NCBI GenBank assembly: GCA_945870425.1
Contig: CAMBSD010000004.1
Location: forward strand, 1-64,000
Source: Chitinophaga pinensis
GTDB taxonomy: Bacteria > Bacteroidota > Bacteroidia > UKL13-3
Length of the DNA: 64,000 nt
Reading direction: 5' to 3'
The translations under genes were made by a program, and so were the position numbers. The notes below the pieces were generated by a model, which had not been told where the DNA came from, made no database searches, and saw only the letters and a program-made list of their open reading frames with translations. The stretch's first letter is position 1. Each line of letters begins with the position of its first letter. Below, piece after piece: positions 9,521 to 13,491 of the stretch.

Positions 9521-11089
9521 TTATTTCACCTTTGTTAAGGTCCAATCTCCTATTGTTATTACCCTATTTTTTAGTCTGGGAATAATGCTGCTTTCCTTTG
9601 TATTGTCTATTCTGTAATTGTAATCTACAAATGCTAATGTGTCACAAGTTTTACAGTAATTCTCTATGGCCTGCATTTTGGGTGAAATATTTGAATTGAA
9701 ATCAACTTGATAAAATTGCTCCAAAACCTTTTGCCATTTCACGAAAAAAAAAGGTTCATGCACAACCGCTTTGAAACTAGCCACAGTTGACCTTTGGGCC
9801 TCACTGGTGAAACTTTCATTGTCAATCGGTATTAGAAAACGGGTATCTTTATTCGTATTTTCCTTAATGAAAGTATGTAACTTTTGAATATCCGTTTTCG
9901 GATTATCATTTAAGAAAGCATACTTCGAAGAATCAGTATACGCATCAGAATAAAACATAAAAACAAGCATGGCTAAGGAAGAAGCAAGCAATAATTTATC
10001 TATCACCTTTAATTGAAATGAAGGTATATAAGCGCTTACAAACCTAGCTATAAATATACATGCAAAAACATTGACCCAAATGGTGGTTTTAAACCATTGT
10101 AGTTTACCAATCCACATAAAATGATGGGTGTAGAAAGCCACAAAATAAAAGGCACAAACAGATAAGATGATTGAAAACAGCCATAGAGTCTGCGTCTTCA
10201 TTTTATTTGGTTTGATGGTAATCACAGGTATCAATCCAAAGAACAATAATCCAAAAAATGTGCTGTAATCTAACTTCGGAAATGTAGAAGGAACATAATG
10301 CCAAGGTGCCCTTTTAAAGTAAAGCAAATCATAAAACAATTGATTATCCAAGCCCTGATTATTTAACTTCTGCGCATATAAAAGCGGTCCAAGCAAAGGC
10401 AATGAGAAGATAATAAAAACGATTGAAAATGTAACCAACCGGATAATACTACTTTTTATATTGTTGAATTCAAAAGTAAAGAACAAAATGCCTGCAAATA
10501 CTAAAAACAATTGTAAACCAACCAAGGCTTGAAACCAAACAGACAGGGCAAAGAATATGGCAGATACCATGTAATTATTTTTAAAAAACAAATAGATACC
10601 CCAACTCGCAAAAAGCTCGGCTATAGTACTTCCAATAAAAATTTTTCCTAATAAATAATTACCTCCCAAGGTAAATGAATTGGCAATTATAAAAATAAGC
10701 ATAAGGGCTATAAAAACATAAAAATTTTGCTTGCCGGTTTTATCCGCTTCTGGTTGGAATAATTCTATAATCTTGGTCCAAGCCAAAATGGTAAAATACA
10801 TACAGAAAAAATATAAAACTAGGCAGCTAAACCTGATGCTGAAAACATGGGAAAGGAAATAAACGATCTGCACCCAATAATGCCTAACCGTAAATGTTTG
10901 ACGGTAGTTGCTTAAAAAGAAATCATTAGGATAAAGACTCGGGTCAAACATCTGGTATACCTGAGGCAGGTGCTCTGCTTGATCTCCTGTATTGAAGTCA
11001 TAACCATTCAACAAAACATATAGGCTCATCACAAAAAATGAAACACAGAGTTGAAAGCTATTTTGCTTGAGCGTATTGAGAATTGACAT
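9521..11089 (-). CDS. Polytopic membrane protein of unknown function
   Basis: 522 residues with roughly eleven hydrophobic helices up to about residue 385, then a soluble C-terminal domain of about 135 residues. An acidic first loop (NTGDQAEHLPQVYQMFDPSLYPND) after the first helix resembles the layout of GT-C-type glycosyltransferases and related large-loop membrane proteins, but I cannot assign it to a family with confidence. It starts 45 nt downstream of the lycopene cyclase gene on the same strand and could be the last gene of the carotenoid operon, or an independent gene. No catalytic motif is certain. Confidence 0.75.
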   Translation of the reverse strand: MSILNTLKQNSFQLCVSFFVMSLYVLLNGYDFNTGDQAEHLPQVYQMFDPSLYPNDFFLSNYRQTFTVRHYWVQIVYFLSHVFSIRFSCLVLYFFCMYFTILAWTKIIELFQPEADKTGKQNFYVFIALMLIFIIANSFTLGGNYLLGKIFIGSTIAELFASWGIYLFFKNNYMVSAIFFALSVWFQALVGLQLFLVFAGILFFTFEFNNIKSSIIRLVTFSIVFIIFSLPLLGPLLYAQKLNNQGLDNQLFYDLLYFKRAPWHYVPSTFPKLDYSTFFGLLFFGLIPVITIKPNKMKTQTLWLFSIILSVCAFYFVAFYTHHFMWIGKLQWFKTTIWVNVFACIFIARFVSAYIPSFQLKVIDKLLLASSLAMLVFMFYSDAYTDSSKYAFLNDNPKTDIQKLHTFIKENTNKDTRFLIPIDNESFTSEAQRSTVASFKAVVHEPFFFVKWQKVLEQFYQVDFNSNISPKMQAIENYCKTCDTLAFVDYNYRIDNTKESSIIPRLKNRVITIGDWTLTKVK

Positions 11090-11134
11090 GCTAGCAAAAG
11101 TAAGTCTTGGCTTGCAATTCCTTTAGTGGATGGC

Positions 11135-11824
11135 TTATTTTTTAGTCTTGAATTCCAAAATAGCCTCCATAACACTTATGGGAATGAGTAAGCAGGTCAA
11201 GGCATACACACTGTCCTCTATAGGAATGGTAACTATTCTCCATCCAATAATTTCATGACTATTATAAATAACTACAGGACTTGGAGTAGCCATCCCCGTA
11301 AGTATTCCGTTAACAATAAAAAAAGGAATCAGATGAATAAAATAGGCCACCCAAAAGTAAGCCATATATGGTTTTTTCAAATAAAAACTATGTATCAAGA
11401 GCAAAATTAATGCAATGATGCTATTCACCAAAGTGTATGTTTTGTCGTAATAGATGACAGTAGCAAGTATACATACGATGATAAAAAAGTTCTGGATATA
11501 TTTCTGAAATGGTTTTACAAAATCAACCTTGATATAGGTCTTGATACATGCATAAATAAACACACTGGCATAAGGCACAACCACGAAGAATGACCACTCT
11601 TCAATGGGCAAATCATAGAGCCTAAATGACCAAACATAGTCCTTGTTAAAGCTCCAAATGCCTTGTCGAGTAAACCACGAATCCCAAAGAATAAATAAAA
11701 CTGCATTGAAAAATACACCCACAAAAAGAGGCAGCCAAAGCTTATAAAAAGCTACCTTTTTATCGAAGCTAAGTAAAAATGGGCCTGCAAAGGAAAAAAG
11801 CATTAAGTATGCGTATAGACTCAT
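11135..11824 (-). CDS. crtYcd: Lycopene cyclase, CrtYcd type
   Basis: 229-residue integral membrane protein with about seven hydrophobic helices. It carries the two repeated acidic motifs of the heterodimer-derived cyclases: LPIEEWSFFVVVPYA (about 72-86) and TIPIEDSVYALT (about 199-210), so it is the fused c+d form usual in Bacteroidota. It closes one or both ends of lycopene to beta rings. The start ATG overlaps the crtZ stop (ATGA), so the two genes are translationally coupled. Confidence 0.88.
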   Translation of the reverse strand: MSLYAYLMLFSFAGPFLLSFDKKVAFYKLWLPLFVGVFFNAVLFILWDSWFTRQGIWSFNKDYVWSFRLYDLPIEEWSFFVVVPYASVFIYACIKTYIKVDFVKPFQKYIQNFFIIVCILATVIYYDKTYTLVNSIIALILLLIHSFYLKKPYMAYFWVAYFIHLIPFFIVNGILTGMATPSPVVIYNSHEIIGWRIVTIPIEDSVYALTCLLIPISVMEAILEFKTKK

Positions 11825-12279
11825 TCAATTATTTTCTTTGAATCGTGTTTGAAATACCTAAAAGGAACTACTAACATTCCGAAATTCTCTCCCTCTTCTT
11901 TGCCAAGGTGTTTGTGATGGATTTTGTGAGCCCTACGGATACCCAAAATGTATTTGTTTTTCCAATTTCTAAATAGTTTGAACCTCTGGTGGATGACAAT
12001 CTCGTGGATGAAGAAATAGGCCAAACCATACAATGATATACCTATTCCTATATAAAGCCTGAAATCATTAAACATCAAACCGGTCATATAGCAATAAGCA
12101 CTCGGCACAGCAAATATGAGAAAGAAACTATCATTCTTCTCAAAAAAACCTGGCTCTGTTTGATGATGATCTTTGTGAAGTGTCCATAAAATGCCATGCA
12201 TCACAAATTTGTGGGTAAACCATGCCACAAATTCCATTAGTACAAAAGTGATAATAACGATGAGTATGTTAAATAGCAT
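11821..12279 (-). CDS. crtZ: Beta-carotene 3-hydroxylase
   Basis: 152-residue di-iron membrane hydroxylase of the fatty-acid hydroxylase superfamily. All four histidine clusters are visible: HKFVMH (23-28), HKDHH (35-39), HEIVIHQR (about 91-98) and HKIHHKH (about 117-123). It adds 3-hydroxyl groups to beta rings. It lies between the CruF-like gene (19 nt upstream) and lycopene cyclase (4-nt overlap). Confidence 0.93.
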   Translation of the reverse strand: MLFNILIVIITFVLMEFVAWFTHKFVMHGILWTLHKDHHQTEPGFFEKNDSFFLIFAVPSAYCYMTGLMFNDFRLYIGIGISLYGLAYFFIHEIVIHQRFKLFRNWKNKYILGIRRAHKIHHKHLGKEEGENFGMLVVPFRYFKHDSKKIIE

Positions 12280-12298
12280 AATAAAAAAACAATTGATT

Positions 12299-12964
12299 TT
12301 AAAAATAGTTTGCTAAGTTTAGCCCTATGAAAAATAAAAGCTGAAACAGAAAAAGCCATTTCGCAATTGGGTTGCTGCTTGGAAGATGTAGCTTTTGATA
12401 AAAAAACACAAAACAAAAAGAAAAGATAAACCAAGCTGTATAGTTTTGAATGGGTGGCACTTGGTATTTCCAATACCAAAAATCAAGTTGAGGAGCCAAC
12501 TGCTCGATGAAAAAATCAATAAAAACCATGAGAAAAGCCGACAACGCAACCACTGAATAATCAAGCATTTTTTCGTTTTGTGGCTTCCACTTTTCTAACA
12601 TTTTTGTTGCCACATGGTAAGCACAATAACACAACATAAGCCAATTTACGCCAATAATAATTGGTACATCATTCAATTTATAACCAAGGTTATTACCATA
12701 AATATATTCGCCAAATATTCTGCCTGTTTTTACACCGAACATCTCAAGAACATAACCAGCTTGAAAAACCCCAGCAATCCATAGCCAAAAATAAAATTTT
12801 TTACCTTTGTGGAAAGCAAAAAGAACAATTGAACTCACAAGCAGGTTGAGCCAACTCAGTTGAATGAATTTGGGATCAAAGCTCAGCGAGCCAATCAATC
12901 CAACTAGATAAATGATGGCTAAAAAAATGATGGCTATTGTTGACTTCCTGTCTTGAGATATCAT
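12299..12964 (-). CDS. cruF: CruF/DUF422-family carotenoid hydratase-like membrane protein
   Basis: 221 residues with six or seven membrane helices. The diagnostic stretch is GRIFGEYIYGNNLGYKL followed by NDVPIIIGVNWLML (about 81-111), then a second conserved Asp/Glu region FIDFFIEQLAPQLDFWYW. DUF422 members include CruF carotenoid 1,2-hydratase and the haloarchaeal bisanhydrobacterioruberin hydratase, which add water across the terminal psi-end double bond. Its neighbours crtZ and crtYcd support a carotenoid role; the exact substrate is inferred. It starts 11 nt after purE ends. Confidence 0.82.
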   Translation of the reverse strand: MISQDRKSTIAIIFLAIIYLVGLIGSLSFDPKFIQLSWLNLLVSSIVLFAFHKGKKFYFWLWIAGVFQAGYVLEMFGVKTGRIFGEYIYGNNLGYKLNDVPIIIGVNWLMLCYCAYHVATKMLEKWKPQNEKMLDYSVVALSAFLMVFIDFFIEQLAPQLDFWYWKYQVPPIQNYTAWFIFSFCFVFFYQKLHLPSSNPIAKWLFLFQLLFFIGLNLANYF

Positions 12965-12975
12965 AATATTTGTTA

Positions 12976-13491
12976 CTAATATTCGTTTCTAAAGCCAATT
13001 GACGATCGACCTTTTTCGACTATCTGTGCTTTTTTCTCAACCTCAGTTTTTAATTTATCTTTATAATCTTGTAATTTTTTTGATAGCTCGTCATCACTCG
13101 TAGCTAATATTTGCAGTGCCAAAAGTCCTGCATTTTTTGCATTGTTTATGGCCACAGTAGCCACGGGTACACCTCCAGGCATTTGTACAATGGATAATAG
13201 AGAATCTAGACCATCCATGGTTTTAAGTTTTACAGGCACCCCAATAACTGGCAGCACTGTAATAGAAGCCACCATTCCGGGTAAATGAGCAGCTCCACCA
13301 GCACCTGCTATTATCACTTTCAAACCCCGCTCTTTGGCCGTTTTGGCATATTCAAACATACGTTCAGGGGTGCGATGTGCCGAAACTACGGTTATTTCAT
13401 AATCCACTTTGAACTCCTCAAGAACATTTGCTGCTTCTTTCATAATCTCCAAATCGCTGTCTGAGCCCATTATGATTCCTATGTTTTTCAT
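12976..13491 (-). CDS. purE: N5-carboxyaminoimidazole ribonucleotide mutase
   Basis: Purine synthesis, class I PurE: converts N5-CAIR (made by PurK) to CAIR. The 171 residues contain GSDSDLEIM (8-16), the SAHRTPERM motif with the catalytic histidine, [13 protein letters not shown] and [13 protein letters not shown] charged C-terminal tail (about 145-171) extends past the core. It heads a minus-strand run into the carotenoid genes with an 11-nt gap, so purE is probably the first gene of that operon. The partner purK lies at 57077-58240, not adjacent. Confidence 0.95.

Follow-up and report, generated by a model that had tools for sequence, protein, structure and literature searches.

We analyzed a stretch of 64,000 nucleotides (nt) from Chitinophaga pinensis (assembly GCA_945870425.1, contig CAMBSD010000004.1, positions 1 to 64,000; hereafter the window) in which three carotenoid genes are arranged in tandem on the minus strand: cruF (12299-12964, 221 amino acids (aa)), encoding a putative carotenoid 1,2-hydratase of family PF04240; crtZ (11821-12279, 152 aa), encoding a CrtZ-like beta-ring 3-hydroxylase of family PF04116; and crtYcd (11135-11824, 229 aa), encoding a fused two-domain lycopene cyclase of family PF18916. 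The genes are closely packed, with purE followed after 11 nt by cruF, which leads the crt genes and is separated by 19 nt from crtZ, and with crtZ overlapping crtYcd by 4 nt; a gene for a DUF6798 membrane protein (9521-11089) begins 45 nt past crtYcd on the same strand. A first-pass annotation of this DNA had given exactly these coordinates and this strand for the three reading frames, and its proposal of an operon of CruF-like, CrtZ and CrtYcd proteins agrees with both the family assignments and the tight spacing found here. The longest stop-free run in 11101-13000 was 229 codons, whereas 200 mononucleotide shuffles averaged 81 and never exceeded 134, and since the domains and the order of the genes are kept in relatives, the operon is not a product of chance. 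A presumed promoter-like pattern of Bacteroidota had 15 matches in the window against 9.35 expected, a number reached by 9 of 100 shuffles, and had no match in the gaps directly upstream of cruF or purE.

For comparison, we used a sample of 295 genomes of the class, 121 of them with CruF, from which 30 CruF loci with flanks of about 1.5 kb were taken for neighbourhood counts, together with named relatives fetched by CrtD (at least 80 loci), in which CruF is visible where it lies within the crtD flanks (37 of the 80). The product of 12299-12964 matched PF04240 (Caroten_synth, which we take to be the DUF422 of the first-pass annotation) at 89.9 bits, above the Pfam curated cut-off of 25. Its scores with the NCBIfam CruF models were 68.3 bits for TIGR03460 (cut-off 154.7), 45.9 for NF045693 (cut-off 400) and 41.8 for NF041333 (cut-off 300). 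We dropped these sub-threshold scores as evidence against a CruF identity because four flavobacterial CruF proteins (L102, L145, L149 and L150), from loci with the order crtI-crtB-crtZ-crtD-cruF, score alike, at 44-69 bits with TIGR03460, and the NCBIfam cut-offs seem not to cover the CruF proteins of Bacteroidota.

Phylogeny of this product, suggested earlier as a check, placed it among Bacteroidota CruF proteins. In a tree of 47 rows, it grouped with the CruF proteins of L072 and L073, whose genes both adjoin crtD (Shimodaira-Hasegawa-like approximate likelihood ratio test (SH-aLRT) 96), and the Bacteroidota CruF proteins were split from the outgroup by a branch with a value of 91, many of the deep forks being unsupported. 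The rows came from 19 of the 30 class loci and 24 of the 37 named loci, all of them sequences assigned by family or context, with the CruF of Nonlabens spongiae not among the loci; three PF04240 proteins, from Nostoc, Vibrio and Niallia, were set as the outgroup, the one from Niallia being matched only in part. In addition, E74, G77, D150 and E154 of CruF were invariant in alignments of 24 and 29 sequences. The first of these drew on 23 of the 30 class loci, leaving out L021, L022, L031, L032, L036, L038 and L040 as short, fused or redundant, and includes four rows without an ATG start (L017, L025, L029 and L034, the last of which is also in the tree); the second drew on 28 of the 37 CruF proteins from the named loci. 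The identification of the product as a Bacteroidota-type CruF, predicted to hydrate the C1-C2 bond of a psi end, is well supported by these comparisons.

The crtZ product matched PF04116 (FA_hydroxylase) at 51.9 bits (cut-off 31) and had no NCBIfam match; its histidine boxes, HKFVMH, HKDHH, HEIVIH and HKIHH, are CrtZ-like by the pattern that we assume for this family, and it is 57-63% identical to the CrtZ proteins of six flavobacterial crtI-crtB-crtZ-crtD-cruF loci. CrtYcd matched PF18916 (Lycopene_cyc) at 116.7 bits (cut-off 27) in two stretches, with the motifs PIEE and PIED, and was likewise matched in two stretches by TIGR03462, indicating that two lycopene-cyclase domains are fused; the two halves also match each other in a profile comparison (85%). 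Fused frames that include CruF were seen elsewhere in Bacteroidota. One open frame of 365 codons including the stop joins CruF and CrtZ (L022), another of 459 codons including the stop joins CruF and CrtYcd (L040), and in three genomes of one family (G043, G082 and G233) CruF lies inside open frames of 539-572 codons, perhaps another fusion.

The first-pass annotation had left crtB, crtI and crtD to a search of the rest of the genome, and all three were found outside the window. The assembly (2.96 Mb, 43 contigs, 97% complete) yielded a single gene each for PF04240, PF18916 and the phytoene-synthase family. On contig C8, one strand carries crtI, crtB and, past one small gene, idi; CrtI scored 727.5 bits with the CrtID model NF058655 (cut-off 640), and CrtB scored 138.7 bits with SQS_PSY. 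A second gene of the CrtI family, at C4:135973-137445, on the contig of the window and about 123 kb from cruF, is a predicted crtD (1-hydroxycarotenoid 3,4-desaturase), its product scoring 651.1 bits with the CrtD equivalog NF042421 (cut-off 500).

From this gene content, it is very likely that the three genes of the operon specify the end-group enzymes of a saproxanthin-type pathway, with CrtB, CrtI and CrtD supplied from elsewhere in the genome. CrtB and CrtI would produce lycopene, CruF would add water over C1'-C2' of one psi end, and CrtD would desaturate C3'-C4' beside the new hydroxyl, while CrtYcd would close the opposite end to a beta ring, which CrtZ would hydroxylate at C3. These activities, the order of the steps and the product are deduced from the genes, their families, their order in relatives and their co-occurrence. 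We favour 3,1'-dihydroxy-3',4'-didehydro-gamma-carotene (saproxanthin) as the expected main product, rather than myxol or flexixanthin, because neither a CrtA-OH 2-hydroxylase, for myxol, nor a ketolase of the size of CrtW, for flexixanthin, was found in the genome.

The case for myxol, in which the 2'-hydroxyl would come from an overlooked CrtA-OH or an unrelated enzyme, is that CruF, CrtD and CrtZ are common to myxol makers and that two genomes of the window's own family (G125 and G186) have a CrtA-OH match. However, a CrtA-OH query from Robiginitalea (L145; 215.7 bits with the CrtA model NF045923, below its cut-off of 300) had no match in the genome of the window, although it matched 27 of the 295 class genomes, the two of the same family included, and we rejected myxol, now a very improbable product, on this ground. 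The earlier suggestion of a monocyclic carotenoid of saproxanthin or myxol type is thus upheld for the 3-hydroxylated beta ring and the 1'-hydroxylated open end but not for myxol, and the question it left, whether crtB, crtI and crtD are present and which product they would give, can be answered from the genome with saproxanthin in the place of myxol. Flexixanthin, or another 4-keto derivative, would fit the set of CrtYcd, CruF, CrtD and CrtZ, which is the same as in Algoriphagus, but we give it scarcely any weight. The sole match in the genome to PF00487 (FA_desaturase), the family to which we take CrtW to belong, is a frame of 368 codons, compared with the 234 aa of the Algoriphagus CrtW, a judgement made mainly by length and with no known CrtW run as a control; CrtO scores were weak and were obtained by CrtD and CrtI, no search aimed at CrtO-type ketolases having been made.

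The gene order in relatives links cruF with the other enzymes of the predicted pathway. Near CruF in the 30 class loci, CrtYcd was present in 19, CrtZ in 14 and CrtD in 14. The contiguous order crtD-cruF-crtZ-crtYcd was seen in L072-L074, which have the most similar CrtD among the matches listed, and in two genomes of the window's family (G010 and G240); in two further genomes, crtD adjoins cruF (G055, in a stretch without a crtZ or crtYcd match, and G265), and no crtD adjoining cruF was found in the stretches from G092, G125, G156 and G186. In G265, which belongs to the same family, the place of CrtYcd in a crtD-cruF-crtZ operon is taken by a CrtY-type cyclase (L188), and the G265 genome does contain a PF18916 match. 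Among the 37 listed named loci with CruF in the CrtD flanks, CrtYcd occurred in 8, a CrtY-type cyclase in 11, CrtA-OH in 11 and none of these in 9, and CrtYcd shared no locus with either of the other two; at the level of whole genomes, CrtYcd and CrtA-OH occur together in 20 of the 96 CruF-positive class genomes that have CrtYcd.

Co-occurrence across the class points in the same direction. Two or more CrtI-family genes (E-value up to 1e-40) were found in 110 of the 121 CruF-positive genomes, compared with 22 of the 86 CruF-negative genomes having at least one (Fisher P 5.5e-23, kinship ignored). In the window's family, two CrtI-family genes are present in each of the nine CruF-positive genomes and one in each of the two CruF-negative genomes, which keep CrtYcd, and all 27 genomes with CrtA-OH in the class sample are CruF-positive. 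This pairing, and the presence of CrtA-OH only alongside CruF, would be expected if a psi-end hydratase feeds CrtD and CrtA-OH.

The single ring of the product, also predicted in the first-pass annotation, does not follow from CrtYcd itself, and the sequence does not decide between a mono- and a bicyclase. Of the 162 CrtYcd-positive class genomes, 66 have no CruF, and in a study of N. spongiae, in which the functions of CruF, CrtD, CrtZ and the cyclase were tested in Escherichia coli, CruF was shown to hydrate lycopene, and the cyclase gave mainly beta-carotene alone and mainly 1'-hydroxy-gamma-carotene together with CruF (PMC11855829). These results suggest that the single ring arises from CruF occupying the other end, and a monocyclic pigment would be expected here because CruF takes one end ahead of the cyclase, not because CrtYcd is a known monocyclase.

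The genome also contains a second cyclase. A gene for a proteorhodopsin on contig C3 (L155:6867-7586, C3:128866-129585) precedes one for a CrtY-Blh fusion (C3:129678-131684), the two together spanning L155:6867-9685 (G000:C3:128866-131684). The fusion protein, of 668 aa, combines a CrtY-type cyclase (PF05834, 133.5 bits) with a beta-carotene dioxygenase (PF15461, 111 bits) and would make beta-carotene and cleave it to retinal, so that beta-carotene, retinal and some zeaxanthin are probably formed in addition to the main product. The genome as a whole would thus divide into a xanthophyll branch (CruF, CrtYcd, CrtZ and CrtD) and a retinal branch (CrtY-Blh and proteorhodopsin).

Several observations weigh against saproxanthin as the main product. 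The CruF protein lies below all three NCBIfam CruF equivalog cut-offs; crtD lies outside the operon; two or more CrtI-family genes are found in 22 CruF-negative genomes and fewer than two in 11 CruF-positive ones; absences from a draft assembly in 43 contigs are no proof; CrtY-Blh could draw lycopene off into dicyclic carotenoids; and some zeaxanthin accompanies myxol in N. spongiae (PMC11855829). Were CrtYcd, CrtZ and the cyclase of CrtY-Blh to outpace CruF, both ends would be cyclized and hydroxylated and the pigment would be mainly dicyclic zeaxanthin, a result to which the many CrtYcd genomes without CruF, the presence of a second cyclase, the beta-carotene that the cyclase of N. spongiae mainly forms by itself and the 58 mol% zeaxanthin of N. 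marinus all lend some weight. On the other hand, the genome retains a CrtD equivalog whose name refers to a 1-hydroxylated substrate, cruF heads the three crt genes, and with the N. spongiae enzymes the monocyclic product predominates once CruF is present, and we therefore consider mainly zeaxanthin unlikely and retain saproxanthin as the expected product.

Full-length CrtY-Blh fusions, counted by hand, were present in 25 of the 295 class genomes (one, in G244, with an in-frame TAG flag), and a separate match to the Blh part in 16 further genomes. CruF occurs in 23 of the 25 fusion genomes, compared with 98 of 184 other genomes with CrtI or CruF (Fisher P 1.4e-4, kinship ignored), which makes a partnership of rhodopsins with monocyclic 3-hydroxy carotenoids testable. 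Of 20 fetched fusion loci, 11, that of the window's genome among them, have a rhodopsin inside flanks of about 1.5 kb. Of the nine loci without one, four are cut by a contig end and five are intact (L167, L171, L174, L176 and L177); a rhodopsin is thus not a constant neighbour of the fusion. Between two different families, the rhodopsins of L189 (G013) and L155 are 97% identical and the adjoining CrtY-Blh fusions only 59%, a likeness of the rhodopsins that may reflect either horizontal transfer or very strong constraint.

The genome has a second rhodopsin gene (L156, on G000:C41, a contig of 3505 bases); the two proteins are identical at 223 of 238 residues and the genes are 78% alike over 700 bases, and they may be either paralogues or a strain mixture in the draft assembly. 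Both proteins have a D-T-E motif, which we take to be that of a proton pump, and, in a register set by the motif, a Gly in the WG motif at what is presumably the fenestration site. Among solved structures, 9jov and 9jou come closest (304 bits), the latter being the zeaxanthin-bound NM-R1 rhodopsin, and Fujiwara et al. reportedly describe carotenoids that bind rhodopsins of Bacteroidota. A study of Kin4B8 names the fenestration Gly as the main criterion for binding a carotenoid and found that, of 12 carotenoids, 3-hydroxylated xanthophylls performed best as antennas (PMC12308411); according to another report, the Gly is conserved in every Bacteroidota proteorhodopsin of a single rhodopsin subtree (PMC13043013). 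We infer that light-driven pumps are encoded here that saproxanthin could serve.

Carotenoid glycosides are common in bacteria, and the position of the DUF6798 gene, 45 nt past crtYcd on the same strand, might suggest that its product acts in the pathway and that the final pigment is a glycosylated or acylated saproxanthin. However, DUF6798 had no tblastn match in 60 class loci, which have short flanks and of which half were fetched for crtI, and no match in the 80 listed named loci or in 15 further stretches (five of them repeats and two rhodopsin loci). With no match near the crt genes of the relatives examined, DUF6798 as a part of the pathway is unsupported, and a conjugated product is improbable compared with free saproxanthin.

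We also compared predicted models of CruF and CrtYcd (predicted local distance difference test (pLDDT) 95.4 and 85.0, respectively) with known structures. A search of the PDB at the limits used found no sequence relative of CruF (by profile), CrtZ or CrtYcd. The best VIA row for both models was the Insig homologue MvINS (4xu4/4xu6), with Z 9.8 over 133 aligned residues and a root-mean-square deviation (rmsd) of 3.1 for CruF (next entry 6.8), and Z 10.7 over 160 aligned residues and an rmsd of 3.4 for CrtYcd (next entry 4.5). Both lie below the caution level of about Z 13 for helical proteins, under which a match may reflect only a common arrangement. The Foldseek match of CruF to MvINS was weak (E-value 0.21, TM-score 0.37), and for CrtYcd MvINS was not among the 17 Foldseek matches with E-values up to 10 and was seen only in VIA of 89 chains. 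The sequence profiles of the two proteins gave an hhalign probability of 0.24% over the whole length and of 0.2-4.2% for half-repeats, with column-shuffled controls reaching 10.5%; we therefore gave up sequence homology between CruF and CrtYcd and kept only the idea of a shared fold.

The chemistry of both enzymes is expected to start with protonation of a psi-end double bond, a shared first step with which a common fold would make sense. A bolder combined reading, which we consider rather improbable, would be that CruF and CrtYcd belong to one Insig-like fold family built of two helix-hairpin-helix units, in which both enzymes would protonate C1=C2 and the cation would be quenched by water in CruF and by the C5=C6 double bond in CrtYcd; that saproxanthin serves the Gly-fenestrated proteorhodopsin as an antenna or photocycle pigment; and that the retinal branch is kept apart, with the CrtY-Blh fusion channelling lycopene to retinal, which would avoid competition between the two branches. 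If true, the shared fold would mean that hydratase and cyclase descend from one ancestor and have their first chemical step in common. Among the papers listed, at the level of titles and the first lines of abstracts, we found no link between Insig and CruF or CrtYcd.

The pathway is already known from other bacteria (PMC11855829, PMC10784355), and the operon described here adds a further case. The comparison with myxol-producing marine Flavobacteria made in the first-pass annotation does not hold. The N. spongiae myxol cluster shares CruF, CrtD and CrtZ, as well as the principle that psi-end hydration steers towards monocyclic products, but its cyclase is CrtY, not CrtYcd, it has CrtA-OH, and all of its genes but crtE lie in one cluster (PMC11855829). 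Among Bacteroidota metagenome-assembled genomes, L072-L074 share the gene order from cruF to crtYcd, with identities to the window's proteins of 47-58% for CruF, 74-77% for CrtZ and 60-67% for CrtYcd, and differ in that crtD adjoins cruF; L074 also has a divergent crtI-crtB-idi group nearby. The closest described parallel is the CrtYcd-type set of Algoriphagus. Algoriphagus makes flexixanthin, and CruF, CrtD, CrtYcd, CrtZ and CrtW were assigned by homology (PMC10784355). In Algoriphagus sp. oki45, crtB, crtI, cruF (likewise 221 aa), crtD, crtYcd and crtZ were identified in the same way, and the product has one 3-hydroxy ring and a 1'-hydroxy 3',4'-didehydro end (PMC10784355), the same end groups as those predicted here. 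The genome of the window differs in that no CrtW-sized ketolase was found in it and in that crtD and crtI-crtB lie apart from cruF.

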